From the NCBI GenBank assembly GCA_031292235.1, contig JARLHM010000109.1, positions 1-38,250 on the forward strand: 38,250 nucleotides of DNA. The letters are read 5' to 3'. A program made the position numbers and the translations under genes. Shown here piece by piece: positions 7,008 to 37,975 of the stretch (the first letter of the stretch is position 1; every line of letters starts with the position of its first letter). Under the pieces are notes generated by a model, which was given only the letters and a program-made list of their open reading frames with translations, searched no databases and was not told the origin of the DNA. The stretch is from Syntrophaceae bacterium. GTDB taxonomy: Bacteria > Desulfobacterota > Desulfomonilia > Desulfomonilales > Desulfomonilaceae.

Positions 7008-7820
7008 ATGAATCCTTCAAGAAGAGTGCAGAGAGGGTTCAGGGTCCATCCAGATTGGGCCACTTCCCTTGGGAATATTCAAATTGTCTTGGTGGGAACG
7101 ACTCATCCCGGGAACATAGGCGCCGTCGCGCGTGTCATGAAAAACATGGGATTGAAAAAACTTGAACTTGTTTCTTCAACCGGTTGTGGTACCGAGACAG
7201 ACGCCTTCCCTATGGCTTCCGGCGCATATGATATAGTCGCAAACGCAGGGGTTTTTGATCACCTGACCGAGGCTCTCGCCAATTCAGTAATGGCGGTAGC
7301 CACTTCCGCCAGGCTGGGTGGGAAAAGAACAACTGCGAAAACTCCATCGGAAATAGCGCCGGAAATTATGTCGACAGCAAAGTCAGCAGAAGTTTCAATA
7401 GTTTTCGGTCGAGAATCGAGGGGACTAACCAACGAAGAAATCAAATTTTGTGATCATCATGTGATCATACCCACAGATGCGGATTTCGCTTCTATGAATT
7501 TGGCTCAAGCCGTGGCGGTAATTTGTTACGAACTTTTTAAAATGGCTTCTCAACCAGTTGGGTTTCAGGCGCTTTCCTTCCACCCTGCTCCAATAGAATC
7601 TCGTGAACTTATGTTTAAGCATATTGAGCAGTCTCTGTCGCGAGTCGGTTTCTTACCCCGCAAGAACCCATTAAGGATGATGCGGGACGTGCGGCGCATT
7701 CTAAATAGCGCAACAATCGATGAACGGGATGTAAGGATAATTCGGGGCATGTTTCGCAAGGTCGATAACGCCATGCGAATGGCTGGACTTAACCGGCATA
7801 ATGAGGCTAGAGAAGAATGA
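7008..7820 (+). CDS. trmJ: tRNA (cytidine/uridine-2'-O-)-methyltransferase TrmJ-like (SpoU/SPOUT)
   Basis: IQIVLVGTTHPGNIGAVARVMKNMG, VFGRESRGLTNEEIKFCDHHVIIPTDADFASMNLAQAVAVICYEL. Internal ATG at 7008 preferred. Confidence 0.87.
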   Translation: MNPSRRVQRGFRVHPDWATSLGNIQIVLVGTTHPGNIGAVARVMKNMGLKKLELVSSTGCGTETDAFPMASGAYDIVANAGVFDHLTEALANSVMAVATSARLGGKRTTAKTPSEIAPEIMSTAKSAEVSIVFGRESRGLTNEEIKFCDHHVIIPTDADFASMNLAQAVAVICYELFKMASQPVGFQALSFHPAPIESRELMFKHIEQSLSRVGFLPRKNPLRMMRDVRRILNSATIDERDVRIIRGMFRKVDNAMRMAGLNRHNEAREE

Positions 7821-8626
7821 ACATGTCGAGCCACATGCTCTTTGATCCGGTAATCTTCAGGCTTGGACCATTGGAGTTTCGTTGGTACGGTTTGATGTAT
7901 TTGATCGGATTTGGGATAGCCTACCTCATAATAAAAAGTGAATTGACCAGGAAAAAAGGCACCCTACCGCCGGAAGCCGCAGGGGATTTTCTTTTCTATT
8001 TGATACTCGGCTTGTTGGTCGGAGCTAGAATAGGATACGTCATTTTTTACAACTTGCCAGTTTATATTCAACGACCATGGGAAGTCTTTGCAATTTGGCA
8101 CGGTGGCATGAGTTTTCACGGCGGGCTTATTGGCATGATTGTTTTTGGGTTCATTTTCTCAACGAAATATAGAGTTCCTTTTTTTGAACTTGCTGATGTT
8201 GGCGCTTTGGCCGCCCCGATGGGCCTCATGTTGGGCCGAATCGGCAATTTCATCAATGGAGAGCTTTTCGGTAGGCCTACAAGCCTACCGTGGGGAATGA
8301 TTTTCCCAGGTGGAGGGAATATTCCTCGACACCCATCTCAGATCTACGAAGCGCTGCTGGAAGGCCCTGTCCTTTTTTCTATTCTATGGGTCCTCAGGAC
8401 CAGGATTAAACGGCCTGGTAATATTCTGGCAATTTTCTTGATGATCTATGGTTTGTTTAGATTTCTTGCGGAATTCTTTAGGGAACCCGATCCTCAATTG
8501 GGCTTCATATTCGAGGGCCTGACTATGGGGCAAATTCTTTGTCTGGCCATGATCAGCTCTGGCGCTGGACTTTTTGTATATCTCAGGTTAACCGACAGGT
8601 CGTTTGACCAGGCTAATTCGACGTAG
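7817..8626 (+). CDS. lgt: Prolipoprotein diacylglyceryl transferase
   Basis: 269 aa multi-TM with GRIGNFINGELFGRPTSLPWGMIFPGGGNIPRHPSQIYEALLEG. Start overlaps the trmJ stop. Confidence 0.95.
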   Translation: MNMSSHMLFDPVIFRLGPLEFRWYGLMYLIGFGIAYLIIKSELTRKKGTLPPEAAGDFLFYLILGLLVGARIGYVIFYNLPVYIQRPWEVFAIWHGGMSFHGGLIGMIVFGFIFSTKYRVPFFELADVGALAAPMGLMLGRIGNFINGELFGRPTSLPWGMIFPGGGNIPRHPSQIYEALLEGPVLFSILWVLRTRIKRPGNILAIFLMIYGLFRFLAEFFREPDPQLGFIFEGLTMGQILCLAMISSGAGLFVYLRLTDRSFDQANST

Positions 8627-8702: not shown

Positions 8703-11700
8703 ATGAAAATTAATTCGCGTTTTTTCTATGGTCTATCTCTAATATGCTTAGGTATATCATTTTACCCAGGGCAGGTCAGTCAAGCTCAATACGGCGCGCC
8801 GTTTCATTCTGTTGTTATTGGGGCCAGTGGAGATCCCAGTTCGGAAACTAGACCCAACCCACAACATTCGGATTTTCATCGCGGCTGGGATCTTGTTGCA
8901 AAAGCCTCCTCAGACAAGAATCATAAACATGAAAAGAGCGCTAAGCCCGGAGCAGAACAGCAAACAGAAAACTCAGCCAACGAGCCTGTTACGAACCCAA
9001 AACCCAACATTTCATCATCCCCTTCCAAGGGCGATTCAAAAACGTTGACTCCAGCCTCTGAAACAAGGGGGTCCAATAAATCTAACGAGGAGGCGGCAAG
9101 CCCGAAGGCCATATCTGAATCGGCTTCAAATCTCCTGAAATCGGCTGAAGAACAGGAAAGAAAGGGAGATTCGGAGGGGGCCCTCAATTCATATCAATCA
9201 GCTTTGGATCAGTCAAGGTCAATAAACCAACCAAAGCTTGAAGCCTTGGCATTGAGAGGAGCGTCGAGGGCCAATTTCCAAATGGGACGACTTGACGAGG
9301 CTATGGGATTTGTTGAAAAGGCCATAGAAACTAATCGGTCTATGAAAAACGCCAAAGGACGCTCACTTGATCTCATATTGGCTGGACAGATTTCTATCGC
9401 TCAGGGAAACTATCCAAAAGCAGTGAGTCAGCTTGAGGAATCCCAAAAAATTTTACCTTTGTCGGAATCTGCCGCACTCCCCGGCTTATTGCAAGATCTC
9501 GCAAAAGCCTACATAAAATCGCAGCGATTCCAGGAGGCTCTTTCCGTATTGAACCGATTGGGGGCCTTTTATTCAAAGAACAATAATACCGAACAGTTGG
9601 CTCGCATTCGGATCAATGTGAGTGACATCCTCTTATCCAAGGGTGATTATAAAAGCGCCGGAACAGAACTTAAAAAGGCTGAAAAGACATTCCGGGAACT
9701 TAACCAATCCAAGGAGTTAGGCCAAACACTATTTCGCTTGTCTTACCTGGAACTCATCTCAGGAGACTTACCTGGCGCCAAAGACACATTGGATGAAGCA
9801 ATAAAACAAACATCCGGGGCCGATGTGAAATGGGCTCATACACTTCAGGCAACGCTCAAGGGAATGGAATCGTACCAAAAAGGTGAACTTGATGGGGCAT
9901 CAAAGCAGCTTAATGAAGCGCTTTCCGAGATTGAACAGACTCAGCGCATTCTTCTAAAAAGCCAAGTCCAATTGACACTGGCCAAGGTTGACATGGAAAT
10001 GGCAAATTGGAAATCAGCTCAGGATTTAGCTTCCTCAGCCCTTAAAGGATTCACAGGTTCTTCGACCGTTGCAGGAGAAGCTGACGCAGAACTTACCATA
10101 GCACAAATACTTTTTCGGCAAAGTTCTCTAAAAGACGCAATGGATCACGCTCAAAAGGCCCTTGAGATTTTTAAGAAACTCAAAAACAGGGCTAGAATGG
10201 TCGAATGTAGAATCCTAATTGCTGAAATTAGTGAGGTTTTTGGAGACCCAACAGTAACACTGAAACAACTGAAGGACGCTCTCGAAGACTCAAAAACGGG
10301 GATAGATCGCAAGACTACGAATTGTTTGAGATTGGCTGTAGCCAAGTTTCGTGTCACCCGGGAGAACCCCGAGAAGGCGCTGGAATCGGCATTGGAAGCC
10401 AAAAAGGATTTTCAGGCTATACAGGATCGTCGAGGCATAGCTGAAGCCAATTTCGTCCTAGGCTTAGCCTACGAACTCGGTGGCAACATCAACAAAGGCC
10501 GGGAGATGTTGGAACAGGCATTAAGTTTCCACGAGAAACAGAGAGATCTTTTTTCACAGGGCAAAGACCTTACTGCTCTGGGGGTAATTTACAAAAATGC
10601 CGGGGAGATTGATAAGGCTGAAGAGACTTTCACAAAGGCCTTAAACTTGAGGAAATCTCTAGGCGATTTAAGGGGATATGCTGCAAATCTTGCCAATTTG
10701 GCCAATATTTACCGACGCAAGTCCCAAAATGCTCAGGCTTCTCAAAACCTTCAAAAGGCTTTGTCCATATATAAGCAGGTCTCTGACAAAAAGGGCGAAG
10801 CAGACGCGCTAACCAACCTCGGCAACCTGGACGCCATCGAAGGTTCTTATCAGGTGGCTATGGACAAATTTCAGACAGCGCTCCAGTTGCATCGGGAAAC
10901 CTCTGATATAAGGGGAATTGCGACGGATCTAATAAGCATCGCCTCCCTTCATTTAGTCAGAGGTGAAATAGATAATGGAGCTGCTGCTCTAAAAGAAGCT
11001 GAAACTTACAACAAGCGGATATACAACCCGGTTGGCAGTCTCGCAATCCTTTCGGAGATGGCCACGGTGGCGAAGGCTCGGAGAAATTTCCCTGAGGCGC
11101 TAGCCAATTTAAATAAGGCGATGGAGTTGGCAAAGAAAATCGAAGATCCCAAAGCAATATCATCCATCAATTTGAAGATGGCGTCTGTATATGGGGAAAT
11201 GGGAGATTTTCCAAAGGCTCTTGGAATTCTCAATCAAACACGTGATCAGCTTACTCAAAGCCATGATACCAAAGGGCTTGCTTGGGCCCTCGGTGAGACC
11301 GGCATTATTCAAGCCAAGATGGAAGATTATGAAAACGCCTTAAAGAATCTCAATGAAGCAAATCAGATCCGTGCCGAACACAACATAACATCACCACAAT
11401 CGCAACAGATAGACTTCTATCTTGCTGAGATTTATCAAGGATTCAAAGTGTATGACAGAGCGCTCGACTGTTACCATAGAGCATTATCCTGCTCCCAGAC
11501 ACCTGGAGGCGATAGACTTGTCGGTAAAATTTATGATCGAATCGGTACAATTTACTTTGGTATGGAAGAATACCCCAAAGCACGCGACTTCATGGAGGAC
11601 GCTCTTCGAATAAGCACAGAATCTGGCGACGTAAAAACGCAAAAAGCCCAACTCATAAAGTTAGCTGATGTGCTGAGCAAACTCAAAGACCCAGAGAACG

Positions 11701-13808
11701 GCCTAAAATACCTCCAAAAGGCCCTGTCTTTGACCAGGGAAACTAAGGACCCTGTAAATGAGGCTAGAGTCCTGACCCGGATGGGGACATTGAACCAAGT
11801 TCAAGGGCGTCCTAAAACAGCCATCGAAAATTACACGGAGGCTACGGATATAAGAACCGGGATGGGAGATAAAAGAGGAATAAGCGAAAACCTCCTTCAA
11901 ATTGCTCTTGTGAACGCTACCCTCGGAGATTTCGACCAGTCGGTCACAAATTTAAAACGGGCGCTCGATATTGCACAAGCTTCTGAAGATCGTGGAATGC
12001 TTTGGAAAGCCTATTTCATAATGGGCCGCACCCTGGAGGAAAGGAAAAATTTCGGCGAAGCGCTGGAAGCCTACAGAAAGGCGCTTAGTATAGTTGACAC
12101 CATGGATGTGGACTATTCTGAGGATTCAGAGGAAGATGATTTCATTTTTGGCGGTACATCGGCCCTGTTTGAAACGACACTCCGAGTGCTTATGAAGCTG
12201 GCCAGGAAAGACCCTGATGGGGCATACGACAATCAGGCATTGAGACTCGTGGAGAGGCTCAAAGCCGCCTCGTTTGAGAAGACGCTGTTGAGGATCAATG
12301 TTCCGAGTTTTTCAAACATCCCAAATGATCTACTAATTAAGGAAAAAAGTTTAAGGTTCAGTCTCAGCAGATTCAATGCAAAATTAATGGAACAGAGAGC
12401 AAAAATTCGCTCAAATCCTGAACTCATGAAAAAGTTACTCGAGGAGAGGCGAGCCAAAGAGACAAGTTTCGCCAATTTACGGGATCAACTCTCCAGAGAA
12501 TACCCCGCCTACGTCAATTTAACAAAACCTAAGCCAATATCTATCCACCAGATCCAAAAGAGTTTGGACCCTGAAGAAGTCTTACTGGAATATATGGTGA
12601 CCCGCGGGCGAACATACATCTTTGCGATAGATAAATATCGCTTTCACACTTTTTCGGTCGATTATCCGTTATCCGAGATAGAGAAAGACGTTGAACTATT
12701 GGTACGTCCACTCCGCAAACATGAGACCCTGGCAAGTTGGGATCCATCCGTGGCCTATAAACTCTATTCAAAAATAGTGAAACCTGTTGAATATACGATG
12801 TCAGGTAAAAAGACAGTGGTGGTGATCCCCAACGGTCCATTATGCTGGGTCCCCTTCGAGATTCTTGTAGATTCAAAATCCCATGAAACAAAACGATTTT
12901 GGTCAGCAAATGATAGTCCTTCGTATTTGTTGGAAAAATACGCGTTTTCCTATGCGGAATCTACCTACTCGCTATGTTTGTACAGAAACAGACGGGTAGA
13001 AAAGAAGCCAGGGTGGAATCTTGTAGCTTTTGGTGATCCTGTTTTTGGTGACCCTGATAAGACACTGGAAGAAAACCCCGGCGCTCAGAAAATCCTGTCC
13101 GCAATTGAAAGCCAACCCAATATGCCACTCCAAGGAAATGACTTGCTAAGACCTTTACATGAAACCAGAAAAGAGATCTTGGAGATCACCAAAATACTTG
13201 GGGGTCCCACTCAAACTTATCTTGGTCCGCAAGCGACTGAAACCCTTTTCAAGAAGGCGGATTTGAGCCGGTATGTATACATCCATCTGGGAACTTATGG
13301 GATTTTCACAGCCGGATTGGGACGATCGCAGCAACAACCGGCAATAGTTTTCTCACTTTATGGTGACAAAGAAAGTGACGGATTTCTGGAACTGGGAGAG
13401 GTTTTTGGCCTTAAACTCAATGCGGACCTATTAGTACTGTCTTCAATCATGACTCCAGGGAAGATTTTCAGCTTCGGGTCCAATGGTCCGTTGGATCTGG
13501 CGCGGGCATTCCTTTTTGCCGGAGCCGATTCCATGGTCATGAGTTCCTGGCAGGTCAACCAGGAACACTCCCAAAGACTGCTTCTAGAGATGTATAAGAA
13601 CCTAAAAGACGGTTCCAAGGCTGAAGCCCTTAGAAAGGCCAAGCTAGCTCTTTTAAACAGCCAGGGCACTTCGCATCCCTATTACTGGGGATCTTTCATA
13701 CTTGTGGGAGACTGGCGTCCGAGATTCGTTACGGAGACCAATCACTGGGAACCGGAGAGTATTGGTTTCAAAGGGGTTTCCACTTGGCGAAAGCTTTTCA
13801 ACATGTAG
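8703..13808 (+). CDS. Secreted TPR-array protein with C-terminal CHAT-like domain (predicted catalytically inactive)
   Basis: About 1701 aa from ATG 8703 with signal peptide MKINSRFFYGLSLICLGISFYPGQVSQAQ, then a long array of TPR-like helices (A...G/YxxAxxxxxxAL). The C-terminus resembles CHAT (LDLARAFLFAGADSMVMSSWQV..., HPYYWGSFILVGDW). Confidence 0.87.
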   Translation: MKINSRFFYGLSLICLGISFYPGQVSQAQYGAPFHSVVIGASGDPSSETRPNPQHSDFHRGWDLVAKASSDKNHKHEKSAKPGAEQQTENSANEPVTNPKPNISSSPSKGDSKTLTPASETRGSNKSNEEAASPKAISESASNLLKSAEEQERKGDSEGALNSYQSALDQSRSINQPKLEALALRGASRANFQMGRLDEAMGFVEKAIETNRSMKNAKGRSLDLILAGQISIAQGNYPKAVSQLEESQKILPLSESAALPGLLQDLAKAYIKSQRFQEALSVLNRLGAFYSKNNNTEQLARIRINVSDILLSKGDYKSAGTELKKAEKTFRELNQSKELGQTLFRLSYLELISGDLPGAKDTLDEAIKQTSGADVKWAHTLQATLKGMESYQKGELDGASKQLNEALSEIEQTQRILLKSQVQLTLAKVDMEMANWKSAQDLASSALKGFTGSSTVAGEADAELTIAQILFRQSSLKDAMDHAQKALEIFKKLKNRARMVECRILIAEISEVFGDPTVTLKQLKDALEDSKTGIDRKTTNCLRLAVAKFRVTRENPEKALESALEAKKDFQAIQDRRGIAEANFVLGLAYELGGNINKGREMLEQALSFHEKQRDLFSQGKDLTALGVIYKNAGEIDKAEETFTKALNLRKSLGDLRGYAANLANLANIYRRKSQNAQASQNLQKALSIYKQVSDKKGEADALTNLGNLDAIEGSYQVAMDKFQTALQLHRETSDIRGIATDLISIASLHLVRGEIDNGAAALKEAETYNKRIYNPVGSLAILSEMATVAKARRNFPEALANLNKAMELAKKIEDPKAISSINLKMASVYGEMGDFPKALGILNQTRDQLTQSHDTKGLAWALGETGIIQAKMEDYENALKNLNEANQIRAEHNITSPQSQQIDFYLAEIYQGFKVYDRALDCYHRALSCSQTPGGDRLVGKIYDRIGTIYFGMEEYPKARDFMEDALRISTESGDVKTQKAQLIKLADVLSKLKDPENGLKYLQKALSLTRETKDPVNEARVLTRMGTLNQVQGRPKTAIENYTEATDIRTGMGDKRGISENLLQIALVNATLGDFDQSVTNLKRALDIAQASEDRGMLWKAYFIMGRTLEERKNFGEALEAYRKALSIVDTMDVDYSEDSEEDDFIFGGTSALFETTLRVLMKLARKDPDGAYDNQALRLVERLKAASFEKTLLRINVPSFSNIPNDLLIKEKSLRFSLSRFNAKLMEQRAKIRSNPELMKKLLEERRAKETSFANLRDQLSREYPAYVNLTKPKPISIHQIQKSLDPEEVLLEYMVTRGRTYIFAIDKYRFHTFSVDYPLSEIEKDVELLVRPLRKHETLASWDPSVAYKLYSKIVKPVEYTMSGKKTVVVIPNGPLCWVPFEILVDSKSHETKRFWSANDSPSYLLEKYAFSYAESTYSLCLYRNRRVEKKPGWNLVAFGDPVFGDPDKTLEENPGAQKILSAIESQPNMPLQGNDLLRPLHETRKEILEITKILGGPTQTYLGPQATETLFKKADLSRYVYIHLGTYGIFTAGLGRSQQQPAIVFSLYGDKESDGFLELGEVFGLKLNADLLVLSSIMTPGKIFSFGSNGPLDLARAFLFAGADSMVMSSWQVNQEHSQRLLLEMYKNLKDGSKAEALRKAKLALLNSQGTSHPYYWGSFILVGDWRPRFVTETNHWEPESIGFKGVSTWRKLFNM

Positions 13809-13836: not shown

Positions 13837-15057
13837 ATGAAGATTTTGGTGCTCAATAGTGGCAGTTCTTCTCTAAAATTCATTCTCTTCAAAATGAGCG
13901 GTGAACAGGTCCTGATTTCAGGAACAATCGATAGGATTGGTATTTCCCAATCTATGGTTAGTTTCCAGGAATGTAACAAACAACCCGAATTCATTTTAGG
14001 CAATATCCCCGACCATGGAGCAGCGCTGGATACGTTGTTTCAAGTCCTGACAGTAGGACCAATTTCGGCTCTACCGGACATCCCGGCGATTGCTCACAGG
14101 GTTGCCCATGGTGGCAAATTTAGGGAATCCGTTGTCATCACACCGGAAGTATTGGACCAGATTCGGTCCATGAACCGCTTTTTCCCGCTTCATCACCCTG
14201 CAATGATATTGGAAATTCAGGAATGTATGGAGAAAATGCCGCACGCCGTACATGTGGCTGTCTTTGACAATTCATTTCACAGAGACATTCCGGATGAGGC
14301 TGCCATTTATGGGCTCCCTTATCGATATTTTTCGGAAAAGGGCTACAAGCGGACAGGATATCATGGCAATTCACATGCATTCTCCGCCGATGAATCGGCA
14401 AAATTCTTGAACACTCCTCTAGAAAAGTTAAAAATTGTAACATGTCATTTGGGAAACGGGGCTAGTACCTGTGCGATAAAATATGGAAAGTCTATCGATA
14501 CCAGTCTTGGAATTAGCGCAATTGAGGGCCTAATTATGGGAACCAGATCCGGAGATGTTGATCCAGGATTGATACCTATAATAATGGACGAGGAGGGCTT
14601 ATCTCCGGATCAGTTGACAGATATGCTGAGCCGTTCTTCTGGTTTGCTTGGAATTAGCGGACTAAGTCGTGATATGAGAGAAGTCGAAGCTGCGGCTGCT
14701 GATGGTCACAAACGGGCAACTTTAGCTCTGAATGCCTTTTGTTACAAAGTCAAACGTTCTATAGGATCAATGTTGATGGCGCTAGGCGGTTGCGACGTTC
14801 TCGTTTTTACAGGGGGGATAGGAATAAACAGCGCTATTGTTCGGGAGAAATCCCTTGAGGGAGCGAATGCCCTCGGCTTTCGATTAGACCCTGTAAAAAA
14901 TCGCAATCTGATCCCCTTAACCATGACAAACCCTGTGCAAGAGATATCTTCTGAAAATTCTCCAATCAGGATTCTAGTAATAAGAGCCAATGAAGAACTC
15001 ATGATTGCCAGAGAATGTTATAGAATTACTCAAGACGTATTGGGGGCATGGGCATAG
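13837..15057 (+). CDS. ackA: Acetate kinase
   Basis: MKILVLNSGSSSLKF, GYHGNSHAF, CHLGNGAS, MGTRSGDVDPGL, FTGGIGINS. ATG at 13837 rather than the listed 13702. Confidence 0.95.
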   Translation: MKILVLNSGSSSLKFILFKMSGEQVLISGTIDRIGISQSMVSFQECNKQPEFILGNIPDHGAALDTLFQVLTVGPISALPDIPAIAHRVAHGGKFRESVVITPEVLDQIRSMNRFFPLHHPAMILEIQECMEKMPHAVHVAVFDNSFHRDIPDEAAIYGLPYRYFSEKGYKRTGYHGNSHAFSADESAKFLNTPLEKLKIVTCHLGNGASTCAIKYGKSIDTSLGISAIEGLIMGTRSGDVDPGLIPIIMDEEGLSPDQLTDMLSRSSGLLGISGLSRDMREVEAAAADGHKRATLALNAFCYKVKRSIGSMLMALGGCDVLVFTGGIGINSAIVREKSLEGANALGFRLDPVKNRNLIPLTMTNPVQEISSENSPIRILVIRANEELMIARECYRITQDVLGAWA

Positions 15058-28802: not shown

Positions 28803-30908
28803 TTAAATATATCCCAAATCCGATAAACGTCTTCTGACAATTTCTTCTTCTTCGGCTGTAAAGCCCTTGCCCTCGTTATCAAAATTCACATCACGCCCGT
28901 ATATTTTGGGGATTTCCGCGGAGATTGAGCTTGTTTCAGGAGGCGCGCCAATGGCTATAGCGCTTCCGAGAATGTTTTCAGGACATTTGAGGCCATATTC
29001 GTTAAAAATGGTCGGGGCAATGTCTCGACATGAAGCGGAACTTACGGTCACATCCATTTTGGCGCCTTTTCGCAAATCACTGAGCCTCGTAGCTATAAAA
29101 ATCCCTTCATGGTCATGGTTGCAAGCGTCAAGGCCGGCCACATTCCCCCTTACCAATAGGCTCTTCATGCCAACATTTCCGACCGAACGTTTGTTAAGGG
29201 AATCAAAATAAACGATTAGGTCAGGAGCGACTCCATTGACTGATCTGTACAATTCTTCAGGCTTTAGCACGACATTGGTCGATCGCTCGCCATTCAACTC
29301 AGGCATCGCGACAAGCTCATCACGCAAATTGTCCCTGAATCTTTCATAGTCCGCTCTTTTTATAATTCCACGCGGCTCTCTTCCCTGAAGATTCATGAAA
29401 ATTCTTGCGTAATATCCACCCTCACTCCAAACATAAGTTTTGTCCCAGTCTATCATGTCCTCGGTCAAGCTGGTTTCCTGAGCTGGCGCCTCTTTCAAGA
29501 CAAGCAGGCCCTTTCTTATAAGCCATTCGTTGATGCAAACTCCTCCAGTAGATTTTTTAGCGCCATGATCGGAAACAATTATGACAGTGGTTTCATCATC
29601 AAGGAGCGCGAGGATTCCGCCAATTTTGTCATCAAGATATTTGTAGAAGTTTGGAATCACATCTTTCCATCGAGCCTCAACCGAATTTCCTGGGTTTTGT
29701 CGCTCATAGTCTCCCCAAAACGCATGTTGGAGACGATCCGGAGCAATCTCGACCATCATAAAGAAATCCCACGGCTCCTTCAGTAAGAGTTCATGGGCGA
29801 CCCTAAACCTAAGATCTACCATGCTGTATAGTCCTTGAAGCAGATTATCCTTTGGCAGGGTCCGGAAATCTCTTATGTCCGAAAGGTACGGATCATTCCC
29901 AAGACACGAAAGTTGATTTATGAGGCCGTGAGGATGTGTAAGATCTGGAGAATCTTCGATGGCCGGGAAGCCTGCAATAGTCACTCCGGAATGGGGCTCA
30001 GCCGGAAATGTCTGGGGTATTCCTACAAGAATCGATCTTTTACCATAGGTCTCAAGATGATCCCAGACTCGTGGGAAAGGGACATGTTTCGAATTGACGG
30101 TTATCACATTATAGTGATCATGGGTCAACCGGTTCCTAAACCCATACAAACCCAATTCACCGGGATCACGTCCCGTGGTGATTGTAGTCCAGGCCGGTAT
30201 GGTTATCGGTGGGTCAGTAGATTTCAGCGGTCCCCAGACCCCATGTCGCATTAACGATTCGATGTTTGCGAGTCTGCTGGATTGATTAAAAATGATACTG
30301 GGAGGGGCGCAATCAAGCCCAATTACCGCGATTTTTCGCGAATTACGGTCCCTGTGTAGTTTAGGAACACTGGCGACACTGAATTCTGGAAATCGTTTTT
30401 CGAGAAAATTAACGACCTGCTCAATGGACTCTTTTAAGTTGAATTGGTCAGTATCAATTACAAAATCCGGGCGCTCAGGCGTCTGAAAGGGCGCCGAGAT
30501 TCCCGTAAATTCGGGTATCAGGCCATGTCTCGCCTTAACATAAAGGCCCTTTGGATCACGAGCCTCACAAACACGCAAAGGACAATTTAAAAATATCTCA
30601 ACAAAATCTCCCGGCTCAAAAACTGATCTGACCGCTCTACGAAGATCTTCCATTGGGGTAATAAACGCGGCGAAGACCATGTTACCAAGATCACTTAGAA
30701 GCTTAGCGATCTCACTAGCCCTTCGAATGTTTTCGGAACGGTCCAAAGCTGAAAAACCAAGGTCTCTGTTTAACCCTGCGCGTAAGACATCTCCATCCAA
30801 AAATGCGCAAGGATGGCCTCTGGCGCCAAATACACTTATTAAAGCGCTAGCTAGGGTTGATTTTCCTGAGCCGGAAAGTCCTGTGAGCCAGATTGTTTTT
30901 CCTGACAT
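28803..30908 (-). CDS. Fusion: adenylylsulfate (APS) kinase plus alkaline-phosphatase-superfamily phosphodiesterase/nucleotide pyrophosphatase
   Basis: Residues 1-180: GLSGSGKST, FLDGDVLRAGLNRDLGFS, DPKGLYVKARHGLIPEFTGISAPFQTPERPD. From about residue 190: VIGLDCAPPSIIF, PITIPAWTTITTGRDPGELGLYGFRNR, DRLQHAFW, VIIVSDHGAKK. Confidence 0.9.
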   Translation of the reverse strand: MSGKTIWLTGLSGSGKSTLASALISVFGARGHPCAFLDGDVLRAGLNRDLGFSALDRSENIRRASEIAKLLSDLGNMVFAAFITPMEDLRRAVRSVFEPGDFVEIFLNCPLRVCEARDPKGLYVKARHGLIPEFTGISAPFQTPERPDFVIDTDQFNLKESIEQVVNFLEKRFPEFSVASVPKLHRDRNSRKIAVIGLDCAPPSIIFNQSSRLANIESLMRHGVWGPLKSTDPPITIPAWTTITTGRDPGELGLYGFRNRLTHDHYNVITVNSKHVPFPRVWDHLETYGKRSILVGIPQTFPAEPHSGVTIAGFPAIEDSPDLTHPHGLINQLSCLGNDPYLSDIRDFRTLPKDNLLQGLYSMVDLRFRVAHELLLKEPWDFFMMVEIAPDRLQHAFWGDYERQNPGNSVEARWKDVIPNFYKYLDDKIGGILALLDDETTVIIVSDHGAKKSTGGVCINEWLIRKGLLVLKEAPAQETSLTEDMIDWDKTYVWSEGGYYARIFMNLQGREPRGIIKRADYERFRDNLRDELVAMPELNGERSTNVVLKPEELYRSVNGVAPDLIVYFDSLNKRSVGNVGMKSLLVRGNVAGLDACNHDHEGIFIATRLSDLRKGAKMDVTVSSASCRDIAPTIFNEYGLKCPENILGSAIAIGAPPETSSISAEIPKIYGRDVNFDNEGKGFTAEEEEIVRRRLSDLGYI

Positions 30909-33538: not shown

Positions 33539-36500
33539 ATGGCCCAACCGAAGGATGTTGTAGGCGCCGCTCTTGTCGTCGGTGGCGGCATAGCAGGCGT
33601 TCAGGCCTCGTTAGACCTGGCGGAATCGGGTTATAAGGTTTACCTGGTTGAAAGTCAGACAGGTATTGGCGGGCGTATGGCTCAGCTTGACAAGACCTTC
33701 CCTACGAACGATTGCTCGACCTGTATATTTTCCCCAAAATTGGTTACGGTAGGCCAAAACCCCAATATAGAGCTTCTATCCTATAGTGAGGTTGATGATA
33801 TCCAGGGCGAAGCGGGCCGCTTCAAAGTTCGTATAAAACAGAAATCCCGATACATTCGAAAAGATCGGTGCAAAGCATGTGGAGATTGCGCCACAGCCTG
33901 CCCGGTAAAAGTTCCTAACGCCTTTGATCAGGAATTGAGCAAACGCTCCGCGACCTATCGACTGTTCCCCCAGACCATACCGCAAACTTTTGTCATTGAT
34001 AAAGCGGACCGCGCCCCATGTGTAATTGCTTGTCCCGCGCACATAAATGTCCAGGGTTATGTGGCCCTAATAGGTAAGGGCAAATATAAGGAAGCTGTTG
34101 AATTAATCTACCAGAACCTTCCATTGCCGGGGGTCTTGGGCAGGGTCTGTCCGCATCCTTGCGAAACGGCCTGCCGTCGGACGGAAAAGGACCAGCCGAT
34201 ATCGATATGTAAACTAAAAAGGTTCGCTGCGGACCAGGTGGATTATTCATCACTGACAATCCCGGAAATTACCCCCCGTGAGGAAAAGGTAGCTATCGTA
34301 GGTTCCGGCCCCGCAGGACTATCAGCCGCCTACTACCTTGCTCTAAAAGGTTATAAGGTTTCTATGTTGGAAGCCGCCCCAGTGTTAGGTGGTTGGCTGC
34401 GTGTTGGAATTCCGGAATACAGACTACCCAGGGATGTGCTCGAAAAAGAGATCAACCACATTTTGAGTCTCGGGGTGGAAGCCAAAACCAATACCGCCCT
34501 GGGCAAGGACTTGAGCATTGATGATCTTAAAAATCAAGGCTACAAAGCGATATTCCTCGGTGTCGGATGTCAGAAGGGCGCCAAACTCGCCATTCCTGGA
34601 GAAGACTCTTCCGGCGTTATTCAGGGAGTGGATTTCCTCAAAGACGCGGCCCTAGGAAAGAAGTTCGAAGGAATCAAAAAGGCCGTCGTTATAGGTGGTG
34701 GAAATGTCGCCGTTGACGCTGCAAGGACTTTAGTAAGGCTGGGGGCTGATTCCACTATTCTTTACCGACGATCAAGGGCTGAAATGCCCGCATTTGAAGA
34801 AGAAGTCCATGCCGCTTTGGAAGAAGGCGTGAAGATTCAGTTCCTGGCGGCGCCGGTTGAAGTTGTAGTTTCCGGAGGAAAAGTAACCGGGCTTAAAGCT
34901 GTACGCATGGAATTGGGCGAGCCTGACGCTAGCGGGCGACGTCGACCTGTGCCTGTCACCGGTTCTGAATATGTTATTGACACGGACACGATTATTCCGG
35001 CAATCGGCCAGATTATTGATCCGGGTCTCTGGGATTCCATGGGGGCTTTGGCGCAGACGAGAAGGAACACTATCGAGAGTGACAAAGTCACGTTCGCGAC
35101 TTCAATCGAAGGAGTGTTTGCGGGCGGTGACGCTGTTTCCGGACCCGCAACGGTCGTGGAAGCGGTGGCCGCCGGCAAAGAGGTCGCAGAATCGATCCAC
35201 AGGTTCATCAATGGGATGGACCTTGCCGAAGGGAGACCTTTTAAATTCCCTGAGAATCCAGAATACCCACCTATCCCCGAGGAACTTAAAAACGAACCTA
35301 GGGCGATCACCCCTGAAATCGCGACAACTGAACGAAAGGGTTTTAAAGAAGTTGAACTTGTCCTGGCAGAAGAAGATGCCCTACGGGAAGCTAATAGATG
35401 TTTGAATTGTGGTGTGTGTTCTGAGTGTATGGAATGCGTCAAGGCGTGCCCTGCGCAAGCTATAGATCATACGATGGAAGACGCCTTTCTTGATGTTGAG
35501 GTGGGCTCAGTAATTCTGTCCACGGGTTATGAGATGATTGACCCTGGGAAGATTCGTGGTGAATTCTCATACGGCACGGCCCCAAACGTTCTGACAAACA
35601 TGGAATTCGAAAGAATGCTCAGCGCATCGGGTCCTAACGCCGGTGAAGTAAGAAGACCATCTGACGAAAAACATCCCCAAAAGGTGGCGTGGATTCAGTG
35701 CGTCGGTTCACGGGACGCGCAAAAAGGCATGCCTCACTGTAGTTCTATCTGCTGTATGGCGTCCATCAAGGAAGCGGTCATAGCCAAAGAGCACGACACC
35801 AATATCGAGCCTACAATTTTCTACATGGATATTCGGGCTTATGGGAAGGACTTTGACGCATATTACGAAAGAGCAAAGAACTCTGGAGCTGTTCGGTTTA
35901 TAAGGTCAATGGTCAGCCGGGTCGTTGAAGATCCGTTGACCCATAACCTTCAAATCACTTATCTCGATGAACAGCAAAAGCTTGTGACGGAAACTTTCGA
36001 CATGGTCGTGCTAGCCGTGGGGCTCAAGACATCCGAACAATCGATAGAACTTGCCGGCAAGCTGGGCATTGGTCTCAACGAATCCAAATTCTGCTCTACA
36101 ACTTCTTTTGAACCAGTTTCTACAAACCGGCCGGGGATCTTTGTCGCAGGTATGTTCCAAGGACCTAAAGACATCCCTCAGACCGTTATGGAAGCGTCAG
36201 CAGCGGCTGGCGCCTCATCAAAACTGCTGACTTCAGCCCGAAACACGTTGGCTGTAAAACAGGAATTCCCGCCTCAAAGAGACGTTTCCGGGGAAGAGCC
36301 ACGAATTGGGGTTTTCATTTGCCGATGCGGTATAAACATCGCCAATGTTGTAGATGTGCCGCGTGTCGTTGAACATGTCAGGAACCTGCCCAATGTGGTA
36401 TTCGCTGACGAGAAACTGTTTACATGTTCACAGGACACTCAGGAACAGTTCCTTGACATCATTAAGGAACATAATCTTAACCGTGTAGTTGTGTCCGCAT

Positions 36501-37975
36501 GCAGTCCCAGGACGCATGAACCCATGTTCCAGTTAACCATGGAAAAGGCAGGGTTGAATCCTTACCTTTTCACGATGACCAACATCAGAGACCAGTGTTC
36601 CTGGGTCCACGCCCACAACAAAGAAGGGGCCACATTGAAGGCCATGGACCTAGCCAGGATGGCGATCGCTCGCGCTAGACGCCTGGCCCCATTGCAGAAA
36701 TCGAAAATGGATGTCGTTCATGACGCCCTCGTATTGGGTGGCGGTGTCTCAGGTATTACAGCGGCGCTTAATCTGGCTGATCAGGGATTTCACGTATATC
36801 TGGTAGAAAAATCAGATAAACTTGGTGGAAACGCTCTATACATCGAACGTACTATTCAAGGTGAACCTATCAAACCGTTTGTTGACGACCTGGTCAAAAA
36901 AGTCGAAAACCATTCCAAGATAGAAGTTTTCAAAAACGCTTCTTTTACAAACCTGTCAGGACATGTCGCCCATTTCAAGGGAACAATCCTCAATGGTGAT
37001 GGAAACGGGAAAGATATCGAATTCGGCGCCGCAATAATCGCTACCGGAGGTGTAGAGTCCAAGCCCAGAGAATATTTGTTCGGAGAAAGCAAGGCTGTTG
37101 AGACCCAGCATTCTCTGGAAGAACGAATAATCGCGGGCGACCCGAGTCTCAAGAATGTCAAAAACGCCGTATTCATACAGTGTGTAGGTTCGCGTGACGA
37201 GGAACGCCCCTACTGTTCCAAGATATGCTGTTCAGGGTCCGTGCGTCTTGCCGGTCGGTTAAGGGAGATTAACCCAAACGCGAACATTTACATACTTTTT
37301 AGAGATCTTAGAACTTATGGACTGCTTGAAAAGTTTTACGCCGAAGCCAGGAAAGCGGGAGTCATATTTGTACGGTTTGATCCAGAAAACAAACCGGTGT
37401 GCGAGATGGCTGGAGACAAAGTGAAAGTTACTGTCAAAGACCCCGCACTGGACCGCGATATGACCATCATGGCTGACCTGGTGACTCTTGCAGCGGCTAT
37501 TGACCCTGGAGAAACAAACAAGCAAATGGGTCAGTTGTTCAAGGTTACAGTTAATTCATACGGGTACTTCGTTGAAGCCCACATGAAACTTCGGCCAGTT
37601 GACTTCACGACAGAAGGAGTGTTTCTCGCCGGATTGGCCCATTATCCCAAACCTATTGATGAGTCTATAGCTCAGGCTACCGCGGCGGCGCAAAGGGCGT
37701 CTATCATCATAAGTCAGGAGCAGATGACGTTCCCTGGCGTAATATCCAAGGTTGATCCTGACAAGTGCGCAGCATGCCTGACATGTGTGAGACTTTGTCC
37801 ATATGGCGCACCGTTCATCAATGAGGACCACAAGGCGGAGATAGTCCCGGCCCTGTGCCAGGGATGTGGGATATGCTCGTCCGTTTGCCCGGGCAACGCA
37901 ATTGATCTTCAGCATTTTAGGGATGACCAGGTATTCGCTGAGATAGACACGTTGCTCGTCAAAGAGGCTTCGTAG
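33539..37975 (+). CDS. HdrA-GltD-HdrA fusion: multi-FAD, multi-[4Fe-4S] heterodisulfide-reductase-A-like protein
   Basis: VVGGGIAGVQASLDLAESG; TNDCSTCIFSPKLV; CKACGDCATACP; GltD-like CPHPCETACRR, VAIVGSGPAGLSAAYYLA and VVIGGGNVAVDAARTLVRLGA; CGVCSECMECVKACP; CVGSRD...CSSICC; ALVLGGGVSGITAALNLADQG; second CVGSRD...CSKICC; C-terminal CAACLTCVRLCP and CQGCGICSSVCP. Confidence 0.92.
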   Translation: MAQPKDVVGAALVVGGGIAGVQASLDLAESGYKVYLVESQTGIGGRMAQLDKTFPTNDCSTCIFSPKLVTVGQNPNIELLSYSEVDDIQGEAGRFKVRIKQKSRYIRKDRCKACGDCATACPVKVPNAFDQELSKRSATYRLFPQTIPQTFVIDKADRAPCVIACPAHINVQGYVALIGKGKYKEAVELIYQNLPLPGVLGRVCPHPCETACRRTEKDQPISICKLKRFAADQVDYSSLTIPEITPREEKVAIVGSGPAGLSAAYYLALKGYKVSMLEAAPVLGGWLRVGIPEYRLPRDVLEKEINHILSLGVEAKTNTALGKDLSIDDLKNQGYKAIFLGVGCQKGAKLAIPGEDSSGVIQGVDFLKDAALGKKFEGIKKAVVIGGGNVAVDAARTLVRLGADSTILYRRSRAEMPAFEEEVHAALEEGVKIQFLAAPVEVVVSGGKVTGLKAVRMELGEPDASGRRRPVPVTGSEYVIDTDTIIPAIGQIIDPGLWDSMGALAQTRRNTIESDKVTFATSIEGVFAGGDAVSGPATVVEAVAAGKEVAESIHRFINGMDLAEGRPFKFPENPEYPPIPEELKNEPRAITPEIATTERKGFKEVELVLAEEDALREANRCLNCGVCSECMECVKACPAQAIDHTMEDAFLDVEVGSVILSTGYEMIDPGKIRGEFSYGTAPNVLTNMEFERMLSASGPNAGEVRRPSDEKHPQKVAWIQCVGSRDAQKGMPHCSSICCMASIKEAVIAKEHDTNIEPTIFYMDIRAYGKDFDAYYERAKNSGAVRFIRSMVSRVVEDPLTHNLQITYLDEQQKLVTETFDMVVLAVGLKTSEQSIELAGKLGIGLNESKFCSTTSFEPVSTNRPGIFVAGMFQGPKDIPQTVMEASAAAGASSKLLTSARNTLAVKQEFPPQRDVSGEEPRIGVFICRCGINIANVVDVPRVVEHVRNLPNVVFADEKLFTCSQDTQEQFLDIIKEHNLNRVVVSACSPRTHEPMFQLTMEKAGLNPYLFTMTNIRDQCSWVHAHNKEGATLKAMDLARMAIARARRLAPLQKSKMDVVHDALVLGGGVSGITAALNLADQGFHVYLVEKSDKLGGNALYIERTIQGEPIKPFVDDLVKKVENHSKIEVFKNASFTNLSGHVAHFKGTILNGDGNGKDIEFGAAIIATGGVESKPREYLFGESKAVETQHSLEERIIAGDPSLKNVKNAVFIQCVGSRDEERPYCSKICCSGSVRLAGRLREINPNANIYILFRDLRTYGLLEKFYAEARKAGVIFVRFDPENKPVCEMAGDKVKVTVKDPALDRDMTIMADLVTLAAAIDPGETNKQMGQLFKVTVNSYGYFVEAHMKLRPVDFTTEGVFLAGLAHYPKPIDESIAQATAAAQRASIIISQEQMTFPGVISKVDPDKCAACLTCVRLCPYGAPFINEDHKAEIVPALCQGCGICSSVCPGNAIDLQHFRDDQVFAEIDTLLVKEAS

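Follow-up and report, generated by a model that had tools for sequence, protein, structure and literature searches.

A single-copy, exported-type TPR-CHAT protein of Desulfomonilales, probably maintained as a pseudoprotease after stepwise loss of its His-Cys dyad

The protein described here is encoded in a 38,250 nucleotide stretch of DNA (the window; contig JARLHM010000109.1 of GenBank assembly GCA_031292235.1, from a Syntrophaceae bacterium placed in the Desulfomonilales), and is probably an exported pseudoprotease that selection has maintained. Its CHAT domain has lost both residues of the catalytic dyad in a defined order, the loss is fixed, and purifying selection has acted on the domain after the loss. 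By prediction, the CHAT fold is kept, and a scaffolding or binding function is the most likely role. A CHAT protein is usually taken to be a protease or an effector in cell death and defence. In this case, a single-copy CHAT protein found across an order of bacteria persists at housekeeping-level constraint after the stepwise loss of its dyad. The persistence under constraint therefore points to selection for a non-catalytic function, which is perhaps an older function that was present all along.

The gene is an uninterrupted open reading frame on the forward strand (8703..13808, +), coding for 1701 amino acids plus a stop, and thus bears out the sequence-only reading, which had reported a signal peptide, a TPR-like array over most of about 1700 residues and a C-terminal CHAT-like domain. 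The protein begins with a signal-peptide-like segment, assigned by hydropathy only (MKINSRFFYGLSLICLGISFYPGQVSQA, residues 1-28, 8703..8786, +), and continues with a fast-evolving linker of low complexity (residues 29-140, 8787..9122, +), for which dN/dS is 0.35-0.49 in the clade with the Tyr-Ile pair, compared with about 0.1 for the TPR region. The TPR array follows (residues 141-1150, 9123..12152, +). It is matched by Pfam TPR_12 (1.4e-80) and other TPR models, and both autocorrelation and self-identity peak at 40, 80 and 120 amino acids. The sharp period of 40 amino acids over this region corresponds to about 25 repeats. The best PDB sequence matches of the TPR region are TPR chains of the LGN/PINS type. 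A helical linker with the first strands before the CHAT domain (residues 1151-1340, 12153..12722, +) was delimited in the AF2 model mc313c0dae441, with 52 of 68 HC-invariant (His-Cys) columns retained by the genus, and the caspase/separase-fold CHAT domain itself spans residues 1351-1670 (12753..13712, +), where PF12770 matches with 156.6 bits and an E-value of 1.3e-45 (curated cutoff 24 bits). Structure prediction, proposed earlier as a check, supports the assignment: the AF2 model of residues 1160-1701 has a pLDDT of 89.3 and a pTM of 0.89, and its top Foldseek matches are the TPR-CHAT protein of Craspase (the best match, E 1.2e-13) and separase (4e-09). Profile and predicted fold both place the protein in the CHAT domain family.

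Export of the protein, either to the periplasm or to the outer surface, is probable, judged from the hydropathy of its sequence. The hydrophobicity of its signal segment is only moderate, and a comparable N-terminal hydrophobic segment and charge pattern is present in all 13 full-length orthologs, which have otherwise divergent N-termini. A second hydrophobic segment strong enough for a clear transmembrane helix is absent from the protein by the same measure.

The catalytic columns were located with a profile of 73 CHAT sequences that was aligned to solved chains. The dyad of the Craspase TPR-CHAT protein consists of H585 and C627, and mutation of C627 abolished its protease activity (PMC9729208). 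In the HMM alignment, the column of C627 (7x8a_D, 619+8) is occupied by Ile1582 (codon ATC, 13446..13448, +, in the motif LSSIMTPG), and the column of the histidine of ATHG in DdvA (PDB 8rot) by Tyr1532 (codon TAT, 13296..13298, +, in HLGTYG). The dyad of active CHAT peptidases is thus absent from the protein, with tyrosine in place of the histidine of [AG]-T-H-G and isoleucine in place of the cysteine that comes after the next core strand. Both residues and their codons had been named in the sequence-only reading; the codon alignment confirms them, and the comparison with solved chains places them on the catalytic columns. Six columns are identical across all 67 aligned CHAT sequences outside the genus of the window species, and the two catalytic ones are the only ones lost. 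The other four (Phe1603, Gly1607, Pro1659 and Trp1662) are retained, and the window protein keeps 40 of the 44 columns that are conserved at 88% or more. This conservation alignment omitted two degenerate paralogs of the census, one with a His-to-Leu change (L161) and one a broken fragment (L162).

One objection foreseen from the start was that a different conserved His/Cys pair might serve as active site. When all His and Cys columns were listed, no such pair was found at the catalytic columns of the Tyr-Ile clade. Position 1582 carries the sole cysteine that is conserved in the His-Cys state, and the conserved histidines at positions 1315, 1340, 1394, 1528, 1622 and 1658 have no conserved partner cysteine in the clade. 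On its residues, the window protein is probably inactive as a protease, a conclusion that its sequence supports well.

Of the 18 genomes of the order, 16 carry a single-copy ortholog, among them all eight of high quality, with 47-94% identity; named relatives include uncultured Desulfomonile sp. and a Desulfomonile tiedjei MAG. The search of 295 other sampled genomes of the phylum revealed no ortholog, the best matches (about 33% identity) being paralogous CHATs. Each species is represented by a single genome, in many cases a draft, with a completeness of 82-99%. The gene is missing from two genomes of the order, G006 and G007, both with a completeness of 82-85%. In G007, the conserved upstream neighbour lgt is missing as well, and the lgt of G006 is only 53% identical, so that an assembly gap is likelier than gene loss in both.

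All six members of the genus have tyrosine at the His column. At the Cys column, isoleucine is found in the window genome (G000), G002 and G003, and cysteine is kept in G001, G004 and G005. Outside the genus, histidine and cysteine are both present in all ten orthologs in which the sites are covered, nine of them codon-aligned and one a fragment from G008 (HLATHG, SSC), and the histidine is also found in 57 of 57 aligned paralogs. Whether orthologs share both residues had been proposed as a check: tyrosine is shared throughout the genus, isoleucine by half of it, and neither by the other genera. In the maximum likelihood tree, the genus is supported by 100/100, and the isoleucine clade, also at 100/100, is nested inside it. 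By parsimony, this nested distribution indicates a stepwise loss, from His-Cys (HC) through Tyr-Cys (YC) to Tyr-Ile (YI). A single base change suffices to turn His into Tyr, and two are needed to turn Cys into Ile.

Selection after the loss was assessed by pairwise NG86 estimates of dN/dS with 95% bootstrap intervals. Within the YI clade, the CHAT domain has values of 0.051 (0.027-0.081) and 0.048 (0.027-0.079) at a dS of about 0.5-0.6, and of 0.082 in the closest pair. For comparison, dN/dS is 0.11-0.14 for the TPR region, 0.06-0.085 for lgt and 0.08-0.11 for ackA, so the dyad-less CHAT domain is under constraint of about the same strength as the housekeeping genes beside it. At codon 1532 only TAT and TAC occur, and at codon 1582 only ATC and ATT, with synonymous sites near saturation across the genus. 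As both catalytic residues are gone in the window protein and the assembly is a draft, a decaying pseudogene, a strain mutation or a sequencing error has to be considered. Orthologs with an intact dyad, which had been named as a warning sign of this kind, do exist; yet the tyrosine is fixed in independent assemblies of six species and the isoleucine in three, the reading frames are intact, and dN/dS is about 0.05. The loss is therefore not specific to a strain, and decay or error is refuted, with next to no probability left. The proposal of an exported pseudoprotease, already made in the sequence-only reading, is supported by what was found: homology to an active family (the activity of the relatives being judged from their dyad), tyrosine and isoleucine at the dyad columns, purifying selection, and N-terminal hydrophobic segments in all full-length orthologs. 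The role as scaffold or sensor that was proposed with it is putative.

It could be argued that no protease activity was lost at all. The dyad may never have been proteolytic in this ortholog group, in which case the HC members would be binders too, and the loss of histidine and cysteine would be drift at dispensable positions. The nucleophile loop of the HC orthologs (residues 1579-1586, window 13437-13460) is indeed divergent, with S-S-C-L-[ST] and one inserted residue versus x-A-C-[QE]-T-G in the paralogs. In addition, a second and anciently dyad-less family of exported CHAT proteins in the same genomes suggests that non-catalytic exported CHATs are normal in the order. However, every HC ortholog that covers the sites has this histidine and this cysteine, despite an identity of only about 47-60% to the window protein, which is hard to explain if the residues were unused. 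A dyad that was idle from the outset is thus unlikely, though the odd S-S-C-L loop means that the peptidase activity of the HC orthologs is itself putative.

The second family is represented in the window genome by P0002 (contig C81, L069:2230-4224), another exported-type, dyad-less CHAT homologue. Its members, of about 665-690 amino acids, are single-copy in each well-sequenced genome of the order, have a strongly hydrophobic N-terminal segment according to hydropathy, and were not found in 196 other sampled genomes of the phylum. The CHAT domain of P0002 is degenerate: PF12770 scores 30 bits, whereas profile-profile comparison with the CHAT set gives a probability of 99.6 and an E-value of 5.6e-25. 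The model of P0002, which is of moderate confidence (pLDDT 65), matches the Craspase TPR-CHAT fold. Every member has proline at the His column, and the Cys column holds serine or alanine, with cysteine in two members. By these residues, the family appears to be an ancient pseudo-CHAT. With this second dyad-less family, exported non-catalytic CHATs can be regarded as an established feature of the order, and one may speculate that the window protein and P0002 work together. The P0002 gene, barely caught by Pfam, lies upstream of hypF/hypD genes in the window genome. The census counted about 76 non-orthologous CHATs with the HC pair, so dyad loss is rare outside the two order-specific families. 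Intact HC paralogs with TPR and CHAT domains are strongly expanded in G004 and G012 (19 and 16 CHAT matches), and the CHATs of the Tyr-Ile species are all dyad-less.

A further reading is that catalysis has been relocated. The base would have moved from position 1532 to His1622 (13566..13568, +, placed by alignment columns), in the loop that follows a core strand of the CHAT domain; the YC proteins would still use Cys1582, and the YI proteins would have recruited, for example, Ser1580 or Ser1581. Position 1622 is serine in all HC orthologs and histidine in all six members of the genus, a change that coincides with the loss of the catalytic histidine. In caspase-fold enzymes, the loops that follow adjacent parallel strands lie along the same edge of the sheet. 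Against this stand the subsequent replacement of the cysteine by isoleucine and the presence of both serines already in the HC orthologs. Moreover, about a quarter of the HC-invariant columns have changed somewhere in the genus, so that one new histidine may be coincidence. Relocation is therefore improbable. The same low odds apply to the fuller version, in which the His1532Tyr and Ser1622His changes together represent relocation of the base, the YC proteins are altered cysteine hydrolases, and the YI proteins have either new chemistry or the role of a substrate-trapping receptor. If true, it would make the genus a natural series that begins with a protease, passes through a rewired enzyme and ends with a receptor. 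Dyad loss alone leaves a small door to other chemistry, given the new histidine at position 1622 that all members of the genus share.

Pseudoenzymes that regulate active relatives are a common precedent, and the pseudo-CHAT might likewise be a decoy that acts, by competition or dimerisation, on an active CHAT or caspase-like protease in the same cell. Possible partners exist in the YC species G004 and G001, which have 19 and 6 CHAT matches, mostly HC, as well as C14 homologues. In contrast, the only CHAT matches in the most complete YI genome (G002, 97%) are two dyad-less ones, and C14 homologues are absent from it, which makes regulation of an active paralogue less likely. The window genome (83% complete) is like G002 in this respect, and in G003 two dyad-less CHATs are accompanied by one C14 match. 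The decoy has only a slim chance of being correct.

The preferred reading, a selected exported pseudoprotease with a scaffolding or binding function, would start from an exported TPR-CHAT ancestor with the His-Cys dyad of clan CD. The catalytic histidine was exchanged for tyrosine on the stem of the genus, and the cysteine, by then presumably idle, for isoleucine in a subclade that includes the window species. Peptidase activity would have been given up, and the fold, the superhelix of about 25 TPRs and export would have been kept under strong selection. The superhelix may capture one or more envelope proteins or peptides, with the CHAT fold as a binding or dimerising cap, the groove of which possibly still grips the former substrate but no longer cleaves it. 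Since the protein persists under constraint after the loss, a function independent of the dyad should have been under selection when the histidine was lost, and should be so still. The HC, YC and YI forms among close relatives are natural variants by which the catalytic and scaffold roles of TPR-CHAT proteins could be told apart.

By analogy, the closest precedent is the pseudo-orthocaspases, which belong to a different family of the same fold. Substitutions have been recorded in 858 of 9,994 orthocaspases, with changes from HC to YS, YC or YN being frequent (PMC6426788), and the knock-out of the Tyr-Gly SyOC of Synechocystis has a phenotype (PMC7889975). Like the window protein, pseudo-orthocaspases have a caspase fold and tyrosine at the His position, and are kept despite the loss of the dyad. 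The recorded Y-C and Y-S pairs parallel the YC intermediate described here, and a pseudo-orthocaspase can be the only caspase homologue of a cell. However, they are p20/Peptidase_C14 proteins, whereas the window protein is an exported-type CHAT protein with a 25-TPR array, and PF00656 matches nothing in the window genome, so it is not one of them. Unlike the pseudo-orthocaspases, the genus of the window protein resolves the order of the two losses among species.

Among solved structures, Csx29, the TPR-CHAT protein of type III-E CRISPR (Craspase; PDB 7y8t, 8eex), has the closest fold and the same order of TPRs and C-terminal CHAT domain, but it is an active, CRISPR-linked protease with H585 and C627, in contrast to the dyad-less window protein. 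No Cas gene was found among the scanned genes of the window (spoU, lgt, ackA, a cytidylyltransferase-like gene and others), which speaks against membership in such a system, marked as it is by association with a gRAMP/Cas7-11 CRISPR locus. DdvA (PDB 8rot/8rw5), a transmembrane anti-sigma factor, is a membrane-associated CHAT protein with sequence similarity to the window protein through the CHAT domain. By sequence it keeps ATHG and AAC, and the window protein differs from it also in having no second hydrophobic segment that would make a clear transmembrane helix. HetF of Anabaena is an envelope-associated CHAT and TPR protein that acts through contacts with FtsI at the divisome (PMC8406250). 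Its CHAT domain is N-terminal and active-site mutation abolishes its function, whereas the window protein has a C-terminal CHAT domain without the dyad. Separase, like the window protein, has a long superhelix of helical repeats and ends in a caspase-fold domain, but is an active eukaryotic protease. In the literature searched, which covered only a minor part of the subscription journals, no description of inactive CHAT domains was found. PADLOC, run for defence systems, returned a generic TPR match only, and a viral fold library contained no significant match to the protein.

The position of the gene between lgt and ackA, noted in the sequence-only reading, is general on one side only. The order spoU-lgt-CHAT is found in the window genome and 12 others, which are all 13 genomes with a contig that shows this side, and is thus a feature of the whole order. 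In the window, lgt (7817..8626, +; PF01790, 1.2e-78) codes for prolipoprotein diacylglyceryl transferase. Its adjacency is compatible with an envelope role of the CHAT protein, but proves nothing. Promoter or terminator signals between the two genes were no more frequent in a scan than in shuffled sequences. On the other side, ackA (13837..15057, +; PF00871) adjoins the CHAT gene in the six members of the genus, but not in other genera. As the adjacency is limited in this way, ackA was ruled out as a general functional partner. Two further genes of the window may be mentioned. One (28803-30908, -) codes for a 701-residue protein in which an adenylylsulphate kinase is joined to a type I phosphodiesterase/nucleotide pyrophosphatase domain, an unusual-looking fusion. 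The other (33539-37975, +) codes for a 1478-residue protein that combines several 4Fe-4S domains with two FAD/NAD oxidoreductase modules, in a mosaic of HdrA-like and glutamate-synthase-like parts.
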